Part shown: one piece after another, positions 13,077 to 30,928 of the stretch
Numbering within the stretch: the first letter of the stretch is position 1
Layout of the letters: every line of letters starts with the position of its first letter
Source of the DNA: Paludisphaera borealis
GTDB taxonomy: Bacteria > Planctomycetota > Planctomycetia > Isosphaerales > Isosphaeraceae
NCBI RefSeq assembly: GCF_001956985.1
Contig: NZ_CP019082.1
Coordinates: 5,456,001-5,520,000, forward strand
Length of the DNA: 64,000 nucleotides
Reading direction: 5' to 3'
Notes under the pieces: model-generated
What the model was told of the DNA's origin: nothing
The model's database searches: none
What the model saw: the letters and a program-made list of their open reading frames with translations, nothing else
Made by a program: the position numbers and the translations under genes

Positions 13077-13147
13077 GGATTCGGGGGCCGACTCGCGTGG
13101 CGCCCTGGTGTCGGCATGGGTTTGCTCAATTCCTTGCTTCGTCGATA

Positions 13148-13184
13148 CGAACCGGCTCCGGCGAAGATCTCCGGAGCCGGTTCG
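13148..13184 (-). terminator. 14-bp perfect hairpin directly after the dioxygenase-like gene
   Basis: CGAACCGGCTCCGG and its exact complement CCGGAGCCGGTTCG are separated by 9 bases. The hairpin begins 19 bp past the stop codon of the gene ending at 13203. The position suggests a transcript end, although no long U-run follows. Confidence 0.6.
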
Positions 13185-13202
13185 GTCGCCGCCGCCTACG
13201 AA

Positions 13203-14120
13203 TCAAGCCGGAGGCCCGCCCGGCGGGGGAGTTCCGCCGCCTGGAGGGGAACCGCCGTCCGGCGGAGGATTTCCACCGCCCGGAGGGGGACCGCCGTCCG
13301 GCGGGGGATTTCCACCGCCCGGACCCGCGTCGCCTCCCCCCTCGTTGGCCTGGTCGGTGAGGTCGATCACGATGTTGAACGAGCCGTTGGCTCGTTTCAG
13401 ATTCGCCGCCAGCCGCAGCATCAGGAGTTCGCCGGCCTCTTGCGCGGGAGTGCCGTCGAAGGAGCCTCCTTCATAGATGCCGTCGGTCAGGTTGAACGTG
13501 TCGCGAATCGGGCGGTCGTTGTAGGGGCTGACGTTCGCGTAAACCGAGTTCGTGACGTCGTCCTCGAAGAAGAACTGGGTGGTGAAGTTGTACGTCACGG
13601 TGTCGCTGGCATGATCGTAAACGCGCACTCGGGCGTGAATATGAGGAGTCCGCCCCGAGTACCATCCCGGGTAGACGGTCGTGAACCGGACGTTGCCGTG
13701 CGCGTCGGACACCTGGTAGCCGCGCAGGAACTGCTGGCCGAGCGTGCCTTCGACGGCCATGTCGGAGTAGAGGCCCAGTGCATTGCAGTGCCAGATGTCG
13801 ACGTAGGCGCCCGGCAGCGGCGTGACGCTCCCGTCGACGTTGAGTTGCGACACGTTGACCGCCAGGTACAACGGCAGCCCGACCTGGACGACGCCGGACG
13901 TGGGGTCGTTGCGGACGTCGGAGCGATTGAGCATCTCGTCGACCCAGTACGGGCCTTCGGTCACGCCGGGGGTGTCGTCCACGAGGTTCTGGGCGAGCGC
14001 CGCGCCCTTCGTCCCGAGCACGACGGCCGCCAGCGCGCCCGTCACGCCTTTTCTGAGCACGTCGCGCCGGTTCGTCGCGGTCGCTTTGTGGTTCTGCGTG
14101 GGATCGCTTGACTCTGACAT
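13203..14120 (-). CDS. Intradiol ring-cleavage dioxygenase-like protein with Tat signal and Pro/Gly tail
   Basis: A 305-aa exported protein. The N-terminus carries a Tat-type signal (NRRDVLRKGVTGALAAVVLG). The core (about residues 50-215) matches intradiol dioxygenases, with VDIWHCNALGLYSD, FLRGYQVSDAHGNVRFTT and YPGWYSGRTPHIHARV. The two Tyr and two His expected as non-haem Fe(III) ligands are present (LYSD, WYSG, HIH). The tail (about 260-305) consists of GGGNPPPDGG-like repeats. Soluble family members cleave catechols; the substrate of exported planctomycete versions is unknown. Confidence 0.9.
   Translation of the reverse strand: MSESSDPTQNHKATATNRRDVLRKGVTGALAAVVLGTKGAALAQNLVDDTPGVTEGPYWVDEMLNRSDVRNDPTSGVVQVGLPLYLAVNVSQLNVDGSVTPLPGAYVDIWHCNALGLYSDMAVEGTLGQQFLRGYQVSDAHGNVRFTTVYPGWYSGRTPHIHARVRVYDHASDTVTYNFTTQFFFEDDVTNSVYANVSPYNDRPIRDTFNLTDGIYEGGSFDGTPAQEAGELLMLRLAANLKRANGSFNIVIDLTDQANEGGGDAGPGGGNPPPDGGPPPGGGNPPPDGGSPPGGGTPPPGGPPA
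13213..13329 (+). repeat. 39-bp tandem repeat encoding a Pro/Gly tail
   Basis: Two nearly identical 39-bp units begin at 13252 and 13291, with a third, more diverged copy before them (13213-13251). They encode 13-residue PGGGNPPPDGG-type units at the C-terminus of the dioxygenase-like protein. Confidence 0.8.
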
Positions 14121-14146
14121 GGGATGTCCTCGTTACTCGAAGAAAA

Positions 14147-14815
14147 TCAGACGATGCGGGACGAAGTCGAGGCCGAAGAGCGGCGCGCGTAATGAATCAG
14201 GACGACGCCGGAGCCGAGCGCGAACGGGATGAGGGAGCTGGGTTCGGGGACGGCGGCGGTCGCGGCTGTGACGCTCATCTGCAACGGGTACGAGTCGAAG
14301 GTGAACCACGACGAGCCGGCGTCGTCGCTCGATCCCCATGTGTGTTGAAAGCCGACGCCCACGCCGCTGGCGTCGTTCGCCCAGGCCCAGGCGAACTGCC
14401 CCGTGACTGCCTTGAGGACGACCCAGTAGTTTGAATCCGCGGCCAGCGCCAGGCCGGCTGTTGTGAAAGTCGTTTCCGACAGGGTCGTGGAGACCGCGCC
14501 GGCGAGCGACAGAGCGCCCGCGAAGGCGTCGGGCTGGAGGCCTCCGTCGTTGTAAACGTCAAGCTCCACCTGGCCGCTGATCGAGTCCCGCTGAAGCAGC
14601 AAAGTGATGCTCGTCAGGGTGTAGCTCGCACCGTCGGTGCCGAAGCCCGCGGTCAGCCAACTGTCGGCGACCGCGGTTTCCGTGCCGCCGGTCGTCGCGG
14701 TCAGGTTGTCGGAAAGGATGGTCCCCGCCCGAGCCGGAGAGGAAGCCGCGAAGCTCAGGACGAAGGCCGAGATCGTCACGACCCAGCATGTGGGTCGACG
14801 AAAAAATCGTGTCAT
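14147..14815 (-). CDS. PEP-CTERM sorting-domain protein
   Basis: A 222-aa secreted protein with an N-terminal signal peptide (WVVTISAFVLSFAASSPARA). The C-terminal PEP-CTERM signal comprises VPEPSS, a hydrophobic stretch and a basic end (HYARRSS). The beta-rich middle, with ITLLLQRDSISGQVELDVY and YWVVLKAVTGQFAWAW, resembles the choice-of-anchor domain type also seen in the protein at 48570-49256. The start at 14815 follows a GAGG site; the longer frame lacks a signal. By family knowledge it is processed by an exosortase, which is not in this window. Role unknown. Confidence 0.88.
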   Translation of the reverse strand: MTRFFRRPTCWVVTISAFVLSFAASSPARAGTILSDNLTATTGGTETAVADSWLTAGFGTDGASYTLTSITLLLQRDSISGQVELDVYNDGGLQPDAFAGALSLAGAVSTTLSETTFTTAGLALAADSNYWVVLKAVTGQFAWAWANDASGVGVGFQHTWGSSDDAGSSWFTFDSYPLQMSVTAATAAVPEPSSLIPFALGSGVVLIHYARRSSASTSSRIV

Positions 14816-24375: not shown

Positions 24376-24756
24376 ATGTCCAAACGTCCCATTCCGGCGA
24401 AGTCGGAACTTGAGGTGGCGCGGATCGTATGGGATTTGGGGGTCGCGACGGTGCGCCAGGTTCTCGACGCTCTGCCGGTGGAGCGTGGTCTCGACTTCAA
24501 GACCGTGCAGACCTACCTGCGACGGCTCGAAGCCAAGGGCTATCTGGAAACCCGGCGCGAGGGGCGGAGCAACGTCTACCGGCCGATCATCCGTCCGGAT
24601 CAAGTCGTCGGCGAGGTGACGGACGACTTTTTGAATCGGTTGTTCGATGGCCAGGTGCTCCCGCTGTTTCAACATCTAGTCAATGACCGCGGATTGTCGG
24701 ACGTCGAGATCCGCCAGCTACGAGAACTGTTGGACCGTTTGGAGGACGAGTCGTGA
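24376..24756 (+). CDS. BlaI/MecI/CopY-family transcriptional repressor
   Basis: A 126-aa winged-helix repressor. It has the family start KSELEVARIVWDLG, the recognition helix region ERGLDFKTVQTYLRRLEAKG and the wing GRSNVYRPIIRPDQV, followed by the C-terminal dimerisation helices. The gene is preceded by an ideal AAGGAGG site and overlaps the next gene by four bases (GTGA). By family knowledge it represses its own operon and is inactivated by the neighbouring membrane protease or by a downstream signal. Targets beyond the operon are unknown. Confidence 0.95.
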   Translation: MSKRPIPAKSELEVARIVWDLGVATVRQVLDALPVERGLDFKTVQTYLRRLEAKGYLETRREGRSNVYRPIIRPDQVVGEVTDDFLNRLFDGQVLPLFQHLVNDRGLSDVEIRQLRELLDRLEDES

Positions 24757-26546
24757 CGCCTTTCGATTTCGATGCGCTCGCGCGACTGGCGTGGGCTCAG
24801 ATCTGGCAGGTCACGGTCGTGGCTCTCGTCGTTGGGATCGCGACGAAGCTTTGGTGCCGCGACCGGCCTCGTTTGGCTTATGCGCTCTGGATGCTGGTCG
24901 TCGTCAAGTCCATGGCGCCGCCGGTGTGGAGCAGCCCGACGGGTCTCTTCAGTTGGGCCATGGTCGACGTCGCGGCGCCGACGGCCGCCGTCGCCGAGAT
25001 GGCCGTCCCGAGCCCGGTGGTCGCCTCCAATCGCGGGGGCTTGGTCGCGTCGCCGATCGCGATCGAAGCCGCGACGCGCGAGCCCTCTCGACGTGTCGAG
25101 GCGGCTGTAGATCATCGCCTGGCGGTCGCGGCGTTCTCGATCTGGGCCGCCGGCGCGGTGGTTAGCGTCGCTTTCGTGATCGGCAGGCGGCTCGCCTGCT
25201 CGGTCGTGATCCGACGATCCAGGCTTCCCGTGGACGACCGATTTCTCGCGACGCTGACGGAACTGTCACGGCGGCTCGGCATGCGGGGGACTGTCCGACT
25301 TCTCATGACGTCCAGGCCGATCGGACCGGCCGTCTTCGGCCTCTTTCGGCCCACGATCCTGCTGCCGGAGGCGCTGGCGGCTCACCAGCCGTTGGAGCGG
25401 GTCGAACTCATCCTGGCTCATGAACTGATCCACGTCCGAAGGGGCGACCTCGTCGCAGGCGCGTTGCAACTCGTCGCGCAGCTCGTCTGGTGGTTCCATC
25501 CCTTGATCTGGTGGGCGAACGCCCAGGCGTCTCGCGTGCGGGAACGTTGCTGCGACGAGGAAGTCCTCTCGGGCGTCGGCTGCAAGCCGGCGCTCTATGC
25601 GCGGACCCTTTTGAGCGTCCTCGAACAGAAGGCGCTATTGCGGTCGCTCGTCGCCCTTCCGGGCGTGCGGGCGTTGGAAGTCACGTCACTGCGATTGGAG
25701 TCGATCATGAAATCTGGGAAAGTTGATCATCGGCGGGCGTCCTTGGTCTCTCGGCTCGCCTTCGTGGCTGGGGCGGTCGTCCTCGTCCCCGGGATGGGCT
25801 TGACCCTCCGCGCCGCCCGCCCGTCGGCCGCGATCTCAGGCCAGTTCGCGGCGGTCGAGGAAGCTCCGAACGCTCGAGCGGCGGTCGACGACGGGGCCCA
25901 GCCGGCGGGTTCGCCCAGCGTCGTCCGGCCGGATTCGGCTTTTGAACGACTGGGGAACCCGCAGGTGATGCTAATGCTCACCCATCCCGCAACGCAGGTG
26001 ATCCGGAAAGCGCTGAGGATCACCGATGATCAGATGGCGAAGATCACGGAGATCGAGAAAGTGAGGAACGAACGGCCCGCCCTCGTCAAAGGGAAAGGGG
26101 AGATCAGGTTGACGGGCAGCCCGGATACGTACCCCGAGCAGATCGCCGCGTTTCTCGACCGAGAGGCTGGGAAAGCCCTGATCGAGACCCTCACGCCCCC
26201 CCAGATCAAGCGATTGGATCAGATCGTTTTGACGTCGCGCGGCGTGATGGCGTTTCGCTATCTCGACGTACAGAAGGACCTGCACTTGACCGCCGAGCAG
26301 GAGGGGAAGATCAACGCGATTCTCGAGGGGCTCGTCGCAGCGTTACGAGACCTGGGGCGAAAGCCGGGCGGTCAGCCGAAGAATTACGAGGGTGCCATGG
26401 CCCTGGAAGCAAAGGCCGAGCCGTTGCGGAAGGGGGCTTTTGAGCAGATTCTCGCCCTGCTCACCAAGGAGCAGTCCACGCAATGGAAGGCGATGATCGG
26501 CGAGCCCTTCCGCGCCGAAGAGGCGGAATCCGGCCCGGCCCGTTGA
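24753..26546 (+). CDS. M56-family (BlaR1-like) membrane metallopeptidase with LTxxQ-type tail
   Basis: A 597-aa sensor-protease partner of the BlaI-like repressor. Hydrophobic segments in the first ~180 residues precede the zinc site HELIH (residues 223-227) within LAHELIHVRRGDL, then WWFHPLIWWANAQ and RVRERCCDEEVL, as in M56 peptidases. A further membrane segment lies near 345. Instead of a beta-lactam-binding domain, the C-terminal ~190 residues are helical with repeated LT-x-x-Q motifs (LTPPQIK, LTAEQEG, LTKEQST), like Spy/CpxP proteins. The start is GTG at 24753 with a GGAGG site. The stimulus is unknown. Confidence 0.92.
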   Translation: MTPFDFDALARLAWAQIWQVTVVALVVGIATKLWCRDRPRLAYALWMLVVVKSMAPPVWSSPTGLFSWAMVDVAAPTAAVAEMAVPSPVVASNRGGLVASPIAIEAATREPSRRVEAAVDHRLAVAAFSIWAAGAVVSVAFVIGRRLACSVVIRRSRLPVDDRFLATLTELSRRLGMRGTVRLLMTSRPIGPAVFGLFRPTILLPEALAAHQPLERVELILAHELIHVRRGDLVAGALQLVAQLVWWFHPLIWWANAQASRVRERCCDEEVLSGVGCKPALYARTLLSVLEQKALLRSLVALPGVRALEVTSLRLESIMKSGKVDHRRASLVSRLAFVAGAVVLVPGMGLTLRAARPSAAISGQFAAVEEAPNARAAVDDGAQPAGSPSVVRPDSAFERLGNPQVMLMLTHPATQVIRKALRITDDQMAKITEIEKVRNERPALVKGKGEIRLTGSPDTYPEQIAAFLDREAGKALIETLTPPQIKRLDQIVLTSRGVMAFRYLDVQKDLHLTAEQEGKINAILEGLVAALRDLGRKPGGQPKNYEGAMALEAKAEPLRKGAFEQILALLTKEQSTQWKAMIGEPFRAEEAESGPAR

Positions 26547-26653: not shown

Positions 26654-27544
26654 TCACGCCGCGCCGACGCGGGTCGACGATTCGGGGGGCGGGCAGGAAG
26701 GCAGGAGCAGGGTGAAGGTCGAGCCTCGGCCCTGGCGGCTCTCGGCCCGGAGTCGGCCGTGGTGGGCCTCGATGATATCGCGGCAGACGGCCAGGCCCAG
26801 TCCCGTGCCCCCCACTCCGCTCGAATCGGGGCCGGTTTTGGTGGAGAAGAACGGCTCGAAGATCCGCCTGAGGTTCTCGGGCGCGATCCCCTCGCCGTGG
26901 TCCAGCACGCTCAGCTCGACCATCCGGCCGGACGGGTCAAGCGCCAGCTTCAACCGGACGACGCCGCCGTCGGGCATCGCCTGGCGGGCGTTGATCAAGA
27001 GGTTGATCAAGACCTGCTGGATCTGCGCCGGATTGACCTTCGCGAACGGCCGGCTCATCAACTGGACTTCGAGCCGGACCTTGTGCCGGTTCAGGTCCTT
27101 GCCGATCAGCATCACCACTTCCTCGACCAAACGGTTCAGGTCGATCGGCTCGCGGTGGTTCGGGTCGCGGCCGGGGCGCGACAGGCCGAGCATCCCCCCG
27201 GTGATCGTCGTCGCCCGCTGGGCCGCTTCGAGGATGCGGTTGAAGGCCCGCTCGCGGTAAGCCGGGTCGGGATTGCGGAGCCCGAGCTTCGCGTAGTTGA
27301 GGACCGGCGTCAGCGCGTTGTTCAGCTCGTGGAAGACCCCGCTTGCGAGGATTCCCAGACTGCTGATCCGCTGAAGGGCCACGATCTGCCGGCGCAACGC
27401 CTCGATGTGCTCTTGCGACGACGCCGCGTCGATCTCGCGATCCGTCTGCGCGTCTTGCATGGCGTGGAGCGCCGGACGAGAACATGCGGCCTCGGAAAGC
27501 GGGGAGAGTGACTTCATCGCATCGTCTTGGCTCTTGCGCGACAT
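26654..27544 (-). CDS. Orphan soluble histidine kinase (NtrB-like HisKA/HATPase)
   Basis: A 296-aa sensor kinase with no membrane segment and no recognisable sensory domain. The phosphoacceptor His is residue 72 in GVFHELNNALTP. The ATP-binding domain shows NLLINARQAMP (N box), DHGEGI (G1), FEPFFSTK (F box) and GGTGLGLAV (G2). The FHELNN form of the H box is typical of NtrB/ZraS-type kinases. The start is uncertain: ATG 27544 has an AGGAGG site 11 bases away, and longer in-frame starts exist at 27631 and 27742. No response regulator is adjacent. Confidence 0.88.
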   Translation of the reverse strand: MSRKSQDDAMKSLSPLSEAACSRPALHAMQDAQTDREIDAASSQEHIEALRRQIVALQRISSLGILASGVFHELNNALTPVLNYAKLGLRNPDPAYRERAFNRILEAAQRATTITGGMLGLSRPGRDPNHREPIDLNRLVEEVVMLIGKDLNRHKVRLEVQLMSRPFAKVNPAQIQQVLINLLINARQAMPDGGVVRLKLALDPSGRMVELSVLDHGEGIAPENLRRIFEPFFSTKTGPDSSGVGGTGLGLAVCRDIIEAHHGRLRAESRQGRGSTFTLLLPSCPPPESSTRVGAA

Positions 27545-27781
27545 GGCCGCGTTGACCTCCTGCCCATGGGGTGACGCCCGTACTTTCGTATCGGCTCGTT
27601 TCCACGCGGGAATCAGTTTGTCGAGGGCCATCAGGCGACGAGCCGAAACACCGGCGTTCAGCCGGAGAAACTGTGTGCATCGCACCGTTTTAGGGGTTCG
27701 GGCGAGCCTTGTCGGCGGAGGTCGCGCGGGCGGGACGGGCAAGAGACGTGGGCGCGGATGGAGGCGACCGGCGCGCGAAAG

Positions 27782-28927
27782 CTACTTGACGGGGTCGGCC
27801 TCGGCGGCGGCCGGCGCGGACGATTCGGTGATCTTGATCGGCCATTCCCAGGGAATGATCCGGATGCCGTTGGAGAGGACGACCCGGGGAATTGAGTCGA
27901 GATTGTCGCTCATTAAGGGAGGGGTGACCTTGCGGCCGTCGCTCCAGTAGCCCAGGTGGGTGAATTGCTCCTCGTCGGTGATGGCCTCGTCCAGGTTCCG
28001 GCCGGCGAACGCGGCGTCGAGAGTGGCGTCGGCGATCCGCCAGAAACCGGCCCAGTCGAGCGCGTTGACGTCGCCGAGGCTGAGCTGGAACGACCGCAAG
28101 ATCCCCTCGCCGGTGTCGAGCCGGTGGTTGGCGCTGGTCGGAGCCGTGTGCTCGGCGATCAAGGGGGGGAAGCCGTGACGATCTGACCGGAACACCACGT
28201 ACCGCTTGTGAGATCGAGGAACCGCGGTGGCCTGCGCGAAGATCTGTCGGCCGCGAAGGTCGCCGACCAACAGGTCGTCCTCGCCGACGGCGACGATCAT
28301 CAAGGTCGACGCGGGGATCAGGCTCAGCTTCGGCTCGCGCAGCGGGAGCACTTCGCCCGGCATGAACAGCATCGCCGCGCGAATCTGGGGCAGGCCGGCG
28401 TGCGGATCGGCCGAGACCGCAGTGATCTGCGCGGCCAGGTTCCCACCCGCCGAATGGCCGATCAGAGCGAAGTGTTTGAGGTTGGGCCGGACGTGCTTGT
28501 CGCTCGTTTCGAGGACCGTCAGCGCGTCGCGGATCGCGAACAGGGCGTTGGGCAGGAAGTCGCGCGGCAACGTACCCACGTCGTTCTGGTAACGCGGGAA
28601 GACGACGACGTTGCCGGATCGCACCAGGTGGTCGATCCAGGCACCGTAGATCGCCGGGTTGACCGAGAACCAGCCGTGGAGGAACACCACCACCGGCGCT
28701 CGCTTCGGCTTCGGATCGGCCGGCTCGAAGATCCAGTACGATCGCGGTCCCTGGCCGAACTCGTACCGCAGGACGCGCTTGTGCTGGTGCTTCGACTGCC
28801 CGGGATGCTCGACCGGCGCCGTCCGCGAGGGACGCGACGGACCGTCCTCGGCGCGGAGGCTCGCGCCCGCCGACATGAGGAGGACGAAAATCCCGCAAAC
28901 GACTCTGGGGACGAAGCTCGTTTTCAT
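27782..28927 (-). CDS. Exported alpha/beta hydrolase (dienelactone hydrolase/lipase-like)
   Basis: A 381-aa protein with a signal peptide (VVCGIFVLLMSAGASLRA). The alpha/beta-hydrolase core has the oxyanion segment VVVFLHGWFSVNP, the nucleophile elbow GHSAGG (LIGHSAGGNLAAQ) and later VGEDDLLVG and DRHGFPP as plausible acid and His positions. The substrate is unknown; esterases and lipases of this group act on short esters. ATG 28927 is preferred to 28933 because AGGG lies six bases before it. Confidence 0.87.
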   Translation of the reverse strand: MKTSFVPRVVCGIFVLLMSAGASLRAEDGPSRPSRTAPVEHPGQSKHQHKRVLRYEFGQGPRSYWIFEPADPKPKRAPVVVFLHGWFSVNPAIYGAWIDHLVRSGNVVVFPRYQNDVGTLPRDFLPNALFAIRDALTVLETSDKHVRPNLKHFALIGHSAGGNLAAQITAVSADPHAGLPQIRAAMLFMPGEVLPLREPKLSLIPASTLMIVAVGEDDLLVGDLRGRQIFAQATAVPRSHKRYVVFRSDRHGFPPLIAEHTAPTSANHRLDTGEGILRSFQLSLGDVNALDWAGFWRIADATLDAAFAGRNLDEAITDEEQFTHLGYWSDGRKVTPPLMSDNLDSIPRVVLSNGIRIIPWEWPIKITESSAPAAAEADPVK

Positions 28928-29060
28928 GGCCATCCCTGGCGTTATGTGCGCAACGTCATGTCGCGCGTGCCAAGCCGCGATTGCGCGGAAAGGTCGGCAT
29001 AGTCTGCCTATCCTGCTCGAAGTGTCAATCGCAGACGGAGTGGGACTTGGTTGGATCGAA

Positions 29061-30113
29061 TCAGGGGCCGAAACAGGCTTTCAACCGCTCATCTCGATCT
29101 AATAAGGATATCGCTTCGGCTTGAGCCCCGTCTTGAGACAAAATCGTGTAGAAATCGTCCTTGATGGTCGGGGCGATCTCAATGGCGCTTCGCCACTCGG
29201 CGCGGGAGAACGGGTCGGATTCGATCTGCCGCCAGAATCCGGTTTCGTTGAACAAGCCGTCGATCCGCTCGGACTGGTTCTCCTGGACGAGGCTCATCAG
29301 GTAGGTGGCGACGCCCACCTGGAGGCCGTGGAGTCGAGGTCGCGCGGAGGTTGCGTCGAGGGCGTGGGATATCAGGTGCTCGCTGCCGCTGGCCGGTCGC
29401 GACGAGCCGCAGATTTCCATGGCGATGCCGTTGAACATCAGCGACGAGGCTAGCAACTGGGCCCCTTCGAGGTCGAACGACGGGCGGGCGAGGAACTGAT
29501 GGACGGTGGCGTCGGACAGGAGCGCCGCGAAGTCGTCGACCGGCTCGCCGACCTGATGGAAGGCCAGCTTCCAGTCGAAGATCGCCGTCAGCTTCGAGGC
29601 GAGGTCGCCGATTCCCGACAGCCAGAGCGGCCGGGGAGCGTCCTTGCAGACGTCGAGATCAACGACGACGGCGGAGGGCAGGGCGGCGGCCAGCGATTTG
29701 CGGCGGCCGGCGACGGTCAGGCTCGACTGCGGGCTCGAAAATCCGTCGTTCGACAGCGACGTCGGCACGGCGTAATACGGCAGTCGGCCCAGGAACGCGA
29801 CGTACTTGGCCACGTCGAGCGCCTTGCCGCCCCCCAGGCCGATCATGGCCGAGGTTTCCTTGCGGACGTTGGTGAACAGCTTTGTGGCGGTCTCGAACGA
29901 CGCCTCGCCGATTTCGATCCAGTCGATGCACGACACGCCCTGTTCGCCCATGCCCCGGCGCACGCGGTCGAGATATTCGGGGATCATCCCCTGGCTCACG
30001 ACGACCATCGCCTTCGTGTGCCCTTCTCGCTTGAGATAAAGCCCCAGCCGATCGATCGCTCCCGGCTTGACCCGCACCAGCGACGGGATCACCACCTGCG
30101 TTTTGATGATCAT
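29061..30113 (-). CDS. sn-glycerol-1-phosphate dehydrogenase-like (iron-containing alcohol dehydrogenase family)
   Basis: A 350-aa NAD(P)-dependent enzyme of the EgsA/AraM branch, which reduces dihydroxyacetone phosphate to sn-glycerol-1-phosphate. The diagnostic block is GGGKALDVAKYVAF followed by VPTSLSNDGFSSPQSSL. Expected metal ligands are Asp in GIGDLASK, His in SEHLISHALD and His in LHGLQVG. The start overlaps the stop of the upstream phosphatase gene by four bases (ATGA). In archaea this activity sets membrane lipid stereochemistry. Bacterial relatives are rarer, so the product's fate here is an open question. Glycerol dehydrogenase-like activity is the alternative. Confidence 0.88.
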   Translation of the reverse strand: MIIKTQVVIPSLVRVKPGAIDRLGLYLKREGHTKAMVVVSQGMIPEYLDRVRRGMGEQGVSCIDWIEIGEASFETATKLFTNVRKETSAMIGLGGGKALDVAKYVAFLGRLPYYAVPTSLSNDGFSSPQSSLTVAGRRKSLAAALPSAVVVDLDVCKDAPRPLWLSGIGDLASKLTAIFDWKLAFHQVGEPVDDFAALLSDATVHQFLARPSFDLEGAQLLASSLMFNGIAMEICGSSRPASGSEHLISHALDATSARPRLHGLQVGVATYLMSLVQENQSERIDGLFNETGFWRQIESDPFSRAEWRSAIEIAPTIKDDFYTILSQDGAQAEAISLLDRDERLKACFGP

Positions 30114-30829
30114 GACGACGACTCCGTAGCGCCGGCTCGCGCCGATTCCGTTCGATCCAGGTCGCAGAGCGCGCGGGCGATCTCCGACCAGCAGTTGAAC
30201 GGCTGAAAGCGGAGACCTTCGCCTGTCAACGCCTGGGCCAGGTCGGCGCGGGCGAATCGGAGGGATTCGGGAACCAGGCGGGCGGCGTCGAGGTCGGGGA
30301 ATCCGTCGCCGGCGAACGCGACCAGGCGGTGGTCGAGCAACCCCTGGCGGACCACGGCGGCCTTGTCCACGCCCAGGGTGGGGGAAAAAAACGGCCCGGG
30401 AGCGGGCGGTTCCATCAGCAGCCCCCGGCCTTCCTCGAATCGTCCGGGATTCGCGAAGACCGGGACGTCGACCCCCGCCTCGGCGAGCAAGATCCGGATG
30501 TACCAGGCGCAGCCGGCCGAGGTGATCATGACGTCCCAACCGGCCCGGTCGAGGTTGCGTACGCCCGTGGCGATCTTGGGATCGAGTTGCATCCGCTCGA
30601 CGATCGCGCGGACGGTAGATTCGTCGGCCCGAATCGCGGCGAAATACGCCTGGAGCGCCTGAAAGTGCGTGATTCGGCCAGCGCGGTAGTCGACCCAGTA
30701 GTCGGGGACGTCGGCCGGCAAGAGGTTCTTGATGGTGAGCTGGTAGAAATCTTCGCGGGTCATCGTGCCGTCGAAGTCGCTGACCAGGAGCGAGCGGGCG
30801 GGGGGGGCGGAGTTTTGGGTATGTCGCAT
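30110..30829 (-). CDS. HAD-superfamily phosphatase (MtnX/PSPase-like)
   Basis: A 239-aa hydrolase. It has HAD motif I in LLVSDFDGTMTREDFY (first Asp is the nucleophile), motif II Ser in MITSAGCAWYI and motif IV in FAGDGFPDLDAAR. The helical cap insertion after motif I resembles MtnX or phosphoserine phosphatase-like enzymes. It is translationally coupled to the glycerol-1-phosphate-dehydrogenase-like gene, so a sugar- or glycerol-phosphate substrate is likely. Start alternatives are ATG 30829 and ATG 30871; neither has a clear ribosome site. Confidence 0.87.
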   Translation of the reverse strand: MRHTQNSAPPARSLLVSDFDGTMTREDFYQLTIKNLLPADVPDYWVDYRAGRITHFQALQAYFAAIRADESTVRAIVERMQLDPKIATGVRNLDRAGWDVMITSAGCAWYIRILLAEAGVDVPVFANPGRFEEGRGLLMEPPAPGPFFSPTLGVDKAAVVRQGLLDHRLVAFAGDGFPDLDAARLVPESLRFARADLAQALTGEGLRFQPFNCWSEIARALCDLDRTESARAGATESSS

Positions 30830-30928
30830 GAGCGGAATTCTGCACCTGAACGACGGGCCGACGATCGTCATCGAACCGCCGTCGCGCGATCCGTTGCGGA
30901 GCGCCGCGCCTCGGCGCGGCTCGCCGGC

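Follow-up and report, generated by a model that had tools for sequence, protein, structure and literature searches.

A conserved HAD phosphatase and G1PDH-like dehydrogenase gene pair in Paludisphaera borealis, and its possible role in glycerol formation from triose phosphate

Introduction

sn-Glycerol-1-phosphate (G1P) is regarded as a mark of archaeal membranes. In the planctomycete Paludisphaera borealis, a gene resembling those of the G1P dehydrogenases (G1PDHs) directly follows a phosphatase gene, which raises the question of what such a pair would make in a bacterium. In the portions of the literature available to us, bacterial G1PDHs are mostly treated as lipid enzymes. The pair was analyzed within a 64,000-nucleotide stretch of the genome (contig NZ_CP019082.1, positions 5,456,001 to 5,520,000), called the window here. 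It is a simple two-protein system that is open to testing.

Results and Discussion

The gene pair

The phosphatase gene lies 5′ and the dehydrogenase gene 3′ on the minus strand, and the two share an ATGA (Table 1). The 4-bp overlap described in the initial annotation was thereby confirmed. The open frame of the phosphatase covers 30871..30110 (253 aa), in which starts at 30871 or 30829 are both possible; in the alignment, the start at 30829 fits the N-termini of the homologues better.

Table 1. Features of the gene pair in the window
Feature	Position	Strand	Basis
HAD-IB (MtnX-like) phosphatase gene	30110..30829	minus	Pfam/NCBIfam profiles, catalytic residues, AF2 model
sn-Glycerol-1-phosphate-dehydrogenase-like gene, 350 aa	29061..30113	minus	profiles, tree, residues, fold
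ATGA stop/start overlap, 4 bp	30110..30113	minus	phosphatase TGA 30112..30110, dehydrogenase ATG 30113..30111

The dehydrogenase

The dehydrogenase matched PF13685 (Fe-ADH_2, Pfam) with 130.1 bits against a cut-off of 28, placing it in the G1PDH superfamily on the EgsA/AraM side. Its top NCBIfam match was the archaeal G1PDH profile (NF002022, 215.8 bits), under the equivalog cut-off of 413; the score was 60.1 bits for glycerol dehydrogenase (NF006941) and 38.2 bits of 550 for the halophile glycolaldehyde reductase profile. In a sequence search of solved structures, 3ce9 came first (E 4e-72), followed by the G1PDHs 4rgq/4rfl, 5fb3 and 9h4x (AraM), and the glycerol dehydrogenases ranked after these. 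The fold of the AF2 model (pLDDT 93.4) was compared with VIA-align, giving Z scores of 50.8 for 3ce9, 39.4 for 4rgq, 38.5 for 5fb3 and 37.9 for 9h4x, and 32.5 for the top glycerol dehydrogenase. The motif SxPxSGxEH, W181 and H250 are common to the window dehydrogenase, EgsA of M. jannaschii and AraM of B. subtilis, and are absent from E. coli GldA. D170, H246 and H262 were invariant among the 21 members of the clade described below and align to the metal ligands of the M. jannaschii G1PDH, which we take to be Asp, His and His (D148, H226 and H247). All three putative ligands are also present in GldA and so do not discriminate between G1PDH and GldA.

A tree of 43 rows was built with IQ-TREE and rooted at the midpoint. 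E. coli GldA was the sole glycerol dehydrogenase included, and L004, one of the further and weaker PF13685 matches of the own genome (L002-L004), served as Fe-ADH outgroup; the AraM-type proteins L013, L016 and L022 and some plasmid matches were omitted. The window dehydrogenase and 20 relatives formed one clade of 21 rows (support 100/100), sister to 3ce9 and a Cytobacillus protein (99/97). Archaeal 4rgq and 5fb3 grouped together (98/94) apart from this clade, and the order of the deep branches among these groups was weakly supported (81/56) and is drawn open. GldA and the own-genome Fe-ADH fell outside on long branches, to which, by a program warning, a Streptomyces row may be attracted.

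Two identities were rejected. That of a glycerol dehydrogenase, the placement which the initial annotation had named as its own refutation, was set aside on the tree (one GldA, on a long branch, under a midpoint root), the residues and the fold ranking, which held several glycerol dehydrogenases. That of AraM was set aside on the tree, in which an AraM clade of 12 rows (100/100) left out the window dehydrogenase. By profile, tree, residues and fold, the EgsA/AraM-type character given in the initial annotation was borne out, and the dehydrogenase is, as judged from its sequence, a G1PDH-like protein of a bacterial lineage of its own, apart from AraM.

The likeness to archaeal EgsA (4rgq, 5fb3) lies in the fold and, for 4rgq, in two motifs, SNDG and SSRPASGSEH, together with the three presumed metal-ligand residues. 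EgsA sits on a separate branch, has 30-32% identity, and no ether lipid synthase match was found in the window genome. The nearest solved structure, 3ce9 from Clostridium acetobutylicum (37% identity), is labelled a ‘glycerol dehydrogenase’. Its companion in the tree, the Cytobacillus gene, has no adjoining phosphatase gene in the PLSDB gene table, unlike the window pair.

The initial annotation had regarded the activity as uncommon in bacteria. EgsA/AraM homologues are not very rare, however, being listed for 14 of 44 bacterial phyla, planctomycetes among them, in the available parts of PMC5059525, which include a flattened table. In the same partial text, Yokobori et al. described a G1PDH group with Deltaproteobacteria and listed planctomycetes as carriers; part of the window clade may lie within that group. 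In the portion available, a paper on Acidiphilium merely cites AraM as a Ni enzyme (PMC3989265). The spread of the dehydrogenase by horizontal transfer is suggested because the window protein is closer to its Desulfocurvus counterpart (62% identity) than to the planctomycete proteins of G274 and G283 (54% and 53%).

The phosphatase

The phosphatase matched the HAD profile PF12710 (Pfam) with 37.3 bits (cut-off 27) and the HAD-IB profile TIGR01488 with 58.1 bits (cut-off 45), and with its catalytic motifs it falls into HAD-IB. The MtnX-like profile TIGR01489 gave 77.4 bits, slightly under the cut-off of 81.55, and the MtnX equivalog TIGR03333 only 23.5 of 303.2 bits. D32, D34, S118, K170, D189 and D193 (numbered from the 30871 start), which cover the four HAD motif positions, were invariant in 16 aligned homologues. 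For the AF2 model (pLDDT 90.3), the top fold match in the PDB was B. subtilis MtnX (2fea; E 3.8e-12, TM 0.67), followed by phosphoserine phosphatases; between motifs I and II, the model has helices of the C1 cap type. MtnX and other HAD-IB phosphatases came out on top by fold and profile and share the HAD catalytic residues, but identity to MtnX is 18% and the score is far below the equivalog cut-off for MtnX.

Conservation of the pair

Among the matches listed, the phosphatase gene stood upstream of the dehydrogenase gene on the same strand in 14 of the 20 dehydrogenase-clade loci, overlapping it or separated by 25 bp or less except in L027 (222 bp). It was missing from that position in the other six (L008 and L031-L035). 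The phosphatase was carried by 12 of the 15 genomes behind L023-L038. In the window's family, the Isosphaeraceae, the dehydrogenase (E up to 1e-40) was found in 14 of 45 genomes and the phosphatase (E up to 1e-20) in 20; all 14 dehydrogenase-bearing genomes had the phosphatase, adjacent in 13, the window included. Within the Solidesulfovibrio order, the dehydrogenase occurred in 12 of 199 genomes and the phosphatase in 14; each of the 12 had both, always adjacent. Eight genomes of these two surveys were already among the earlier dehydrogenase-clade loci. Across 294 planctomycete genomes, the dehydrogenase clade was present in four, a clear phosphatase in four and both in three, with the phosphatase cut (E below 1e-40) set post hoc on a list of seven and the weak matches G031, G093 and G203 (24-29% identity) left out of the count.

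The hypergeometric p for co-occurrence, uncorrected for relatedness, was 2e-7 in the Isosphaeraceae, 2e-17 in the Solidesulfovibrio order and 4e-6 in the 294 planctomycetes. The two surveys gave 24 paired loci, of which 19 have a start codon that would allow the same 4-bp overlap; seven of the 24 belong to genomes also counted among the 20 clade loci. Moreover, the pairwise distances of the two proteins correlated after removal of eight duplicate loci (r 0.885, 31 pairs, relatedness uncontrolled), and 0 of 2000 permutations reached as high a value. The pairs in Acidobacteriota (L036) and Verrucomicrobiota (L037) come from one MAG each, where a binning error is possible. These results indicate that the phosphatase and dehydrogenase genes form a real conserved module beyond chance, because the same pair recurs in the same order in many other genomes.

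Host lipid and glycerol genes

Given that the archaeal lipid backbone is G1P and the enzyme is G1PDH-like, archaeal-type ether lipid synthesis had to be considered; we regard it as very unlikely. A search of the own genome (99.93% complete) for PcrB/GGGPS (PF01884), the check proposed in the initial annotation, gave 0 matches, and the control search was positive in 7 of 14 known genomes. A GpsA-type gene (PF07479, 182.5 bits) and a glycerol kinase gene (GlpK, 613 bits, cut-off 590) were present. Archaeal lipid use is also unsupported because the conserved partner, a coupled phosphatase, would strip the lipid backbone and not use it. The archaeal-membrane reading was therefore rejected on the missing PcrB/GGGPS match and the GpsA-type and GlpK genes, and the link to archaeal-like membranes made in the initial annotation was not upheld. 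As a caution, archaeal-like membranes in planctomycetes should not be deduced from a G1PDH homologue alone. That a conserved phosphatase is coupled to the dehydrogenase where no GGGPS match was found suggests that bacteria use G1P for something other than lipids.

A possible route to glycerol

We propose tentatively, at somewhat less than an even chance, that the two enzymes form a module leading from dihydroxyacetone phosphate (DHAP) through G1P to glycerol and phosphate; substrates, order of steps, direction and role are all part of this proposal. The dehydrogenase would convert DHAP and NAD(P)H to G1P, which the HAD-IB phosphatase would hydrolyze to glycerol and phosphate, so that the net reaction would be DHAP + NAD(P)H -> glycerol + Pi + NAD(P)+. 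Such a route would be kept stereochemically apart from the sn-glycerol-3-phosphate pool of the phospholipids and might act on triose phosphate as a valve for overflow, redox balance or phosphate recovery, with the glycerol leaked or regained via glycerol kinase. The grouping of the dehydrogenase with G1PDHs, the intact HAD catalytic residues, the conservation of the pair, the GlpK and GpsA-type genes and the lack of a GGGPS match all favour it, as do the araL-araM precedent and two contexts seen at one locus each, the sugar cluster of L037/L120 with its GlpK-like kinase and the MIP channel gene of G313, which are described below. The score of 215.8 bits on the archaeal G1PDH profile, under its curated cut-off of 413, speaks against it, and so do the partners found alone and the lack of a third gene conserved across phyla. 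The suggestion of the initial annotation that the product is made and then dephosphorylated is, in our view, the best reading of the pair.

Glycerol would also result from the reverse order of steps, in which the phosphatase turns DHAP into dihydroxyacetone and the dehydrogenase, acting like a glycerol dehydrogenase, reduces it. The phosphatase gene does come first, and glycerol dehydrogenases belong to the wider superfamily, but the dehydrogenase falls on the G1PDH side of it, and we consider this order improbable.

The route through G1P can also be stated more broadly, as a horizontally spread two-gene pathway from DHAP to glycerol shared by at least four bacterial phyla, made up of one more G1PDH lineage of bacteria and a G1P phosphatase of a new kind, and leaving the sn-G3P pool untouched. 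In this wide form it is rather doubtful. Among open-licence PMC papers, a search for a G1P phosphatase under four names found no paper.

Partners found alone

The partnership is not strict. Nine genomes carried the phosphatase without a clade dehydrogenase (six are Isosphaeraceae, two belong to the Solidesulfovibrio order and one is G216), and in eight of these a search down to E 0.001 found no dehydrogenase homologue (0/8), indicating that the phosphatase is also of use by itself, as far as gene content can tell. The neighbor genes differ among the phosphatase-only genomes. In the phosphatase tree, the Isosphaeraceae cases had no resolved place. The dehydrogenase was likely lost in the two cases of the Solidesulfovibrio order because both phosphatases nest within the paired clade.

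A phosphatase that occurs without the dehydrogenase would suit a role in quality control, in which the phosphatase, alone or together with a reversible G1PDH, removes the wrong enantiomer of glycerol phosphate before it can enter phospholipids. PlsY and PlsC accept both enantiomers, according to the accessible part of PMC13400652. However, a cell avoiding G1P would need no G1P-forming enzyme, and the dehydrogenase is patchy (14/45 and 12/199 genomes), so that quality control has little probability.

Conversely, no phosphatase match was found in three dehydrogenase-bearing Opitutales/Opitutia MAGs or in dehydrogenase-bearing G283. In G302 (L031) the phosphatase is present and unlinked to the dehydrogenase, and the dehydrogenase homologue on an N. 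vulgaris plasmid (L039) has no phosphatase within its 33-kb stretch. In G313, where no G1PDH homologue was found, a MIP channel gene lies about 13 bp upstream of the phosphatase homologue (L118 8304-8969, minus strand). This gene scored 120.8 bits with Pfam MIP and 117.8 bits with NCBIfam MIP, under the cut-off of 171, and the profile has no power to tell a water from a glycerol channel.

Comparison with known systems

The B. subtilis arabinose operon, araABDLMNPQ-abfA, has araL, for a HAD sugar phosphatase, before araM (order from the operon name in the available part of PMC3207120), and AraM of B. subtilis is a G1PDH (PMC5059525, seen as a partial text). The same araL-araM arrangement occurs in araJKLMN of Geobacillus, by the excerpt available of PMC4194401. 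As in the window pair, a HAD phosphatase gene thus precedes a G1PDH gene in one operon. AraL, however, is a NagD-type HAD of the C2-capped subfamily IIA (PMC3207120, same part), whereas the window phosphatase is HAD-IB and MtnX-like, has predicted helices between motifs I and II and is not of the AraL type. AraM likewise forms a separate clade in the tree, and the AraM-type proteins retrieved are mostly longer than the 350 aa of the window dehydrogenase (of 11 planctomycete frames, nine have 434-470 aa and the remaining pair 601 and 685; Priestia 354). The window pair parallels AraL-AraM and is not a member of that system, both partners being of other lineages, and any likeness in working would be by analogy. 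If the route through G1P holds, it and AraL-AraM would have converged on G1P as an intermediate of metabolism unlinked to ether lipids.

A second system bears on the substrate. VNG_6270G of Halobacterium carries an sn-G1PDH annotation, yet it is a glycolaldehyde reductase that lacks notable activity on DHAP or G1P, and a HAD phosphatase acts in the same pathway, as stated in the part of PMC9700705 at hand. This counts against DHAP and G1P as the substrates of the window enzymes. There are differences: the halophile HAD gene is in an operon with an aldolase gene (same text), and the window dehydrogenase scored 38.2 of 550 bits on this reductase's profile. Even with the higher score on the archaeal G1PDH profile (215.8 bits), the substrate may be another one.

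The pair might accordingly make or break a different small polyol phosphate, the dehydrogenase using some other ketose or aldehyde as substrate (such as a C2, C4 or deoxy-sugar compound or its phosphate) and the phosphatase the corresponding phosphate, in sugar salvage or detoxification. In favour stand the misannotated halophile reductase and AraL, a sugar phosphatase of low specificity for which the clearing of stray sugar phosphates has been proposed (available text of PMC3207120). MtnX, the closest fold of the phosphatase, is named for a keto 1-phosphate substrate, and one pair (L037/L120) lies within a sugar cluster. The profile scores on G1PDH and glycolaldehyde reductase and the residues common to EgsA and AraM and missing in GldA argue against it. 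We hold this reading to be a serious one, if on the doubtful side.

Gene context

An all-against-all ORF comparison of the flanks of the 20 loci (1.5 kb for L005-L008; short contigs for L034 and L035) found no third gene conserved across phyla. Neighbor genes in L023-L057 and L112-L121 were taken from a simple ORF caller, not from annotation. The pair of the Verrucomicrobiales MAG (L037/L120, one locus) is part of a long sugar cluster, mostly on one strand, that includes genes for sugar ABC transporters. About 7-9 kb upstream lies a GlpK-like kinase (NF000756, 561 bits, cut-off 498; TIGR01311, 546.7 bits, cut-off 590). The cluster also holds two transketolase halves, DeoC and a protein with a weak likeness to D-apionate lactonase (263 of 750 bits); we infer that a pathway of this kind would supply triose phosphate. 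A rough pattern search around the pairs for MIP channels and FGGY kinases turned up the L118 MIP gene alone; as it overlooked the GlpK-like gene of L120, its negatives carry little weight.

In the window, an alpha/beta hydrolase gene and then a histidine kinase gene follow 3′ of the pair (27782-28933 and 26654-27742, minus strand). The hydrolase looks secreted, with a signal peptide apparent by eye, and an alpha/beta hydrolase lies 3′ of the pair in the Isosphaeraceae loci L023-L025 as well. Further on, at 24376-26546 (plus strand), a BlaI-like penicillinase repressor (PF03965) is followed by a BlaR1-type M56 peptidase. Divergent from the pair, the segment 31011-36513 (plus strand) holds an ORF that contains an HHH stretch and matched nothing in Pfam, together with a gene like CusB/HlyD and one that looks by eye like a CusA-type RND gene. 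In L023 and L024, a block resembling this one adjoins the pair.

Other G1PDH-like genes were seen in these and further genomes. L023 carries another G1PDH gene, of the AraM type, on the contig of the pair and some 4 kb away from it (13087-14526, minus strand), and a partial frame similar to it is present in L024 (14-973). On a Rubrobacter plasmid (L066, 735-6927), an AraM-type G1PDH gene is flanked by two FGGY kinases, together with rpiB and a G3P dehydrogenase gene, and has the look of a polyol-catabolism cluster. At around 9-12 kb in each locus, the planctomycete loci L054 (G150) and L055 (G103) hold G1PDH-like genes (34-35% identity) near PF04464 CDP-glycerol glycerophosphotransferase genes, and that of L055 adjoins an NTP-transferase gene. 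In Streptomyces, the annotation puts the homologue L041 between genes for a cytidylyltransferase and a CDP-alcohol phosphatidyltransferase. By their neighbors, the G1PDH-like genes of L054, L055 and L041 may serve to make CDP-sn-1-glycerol for a surface polymer or a lipid head group.
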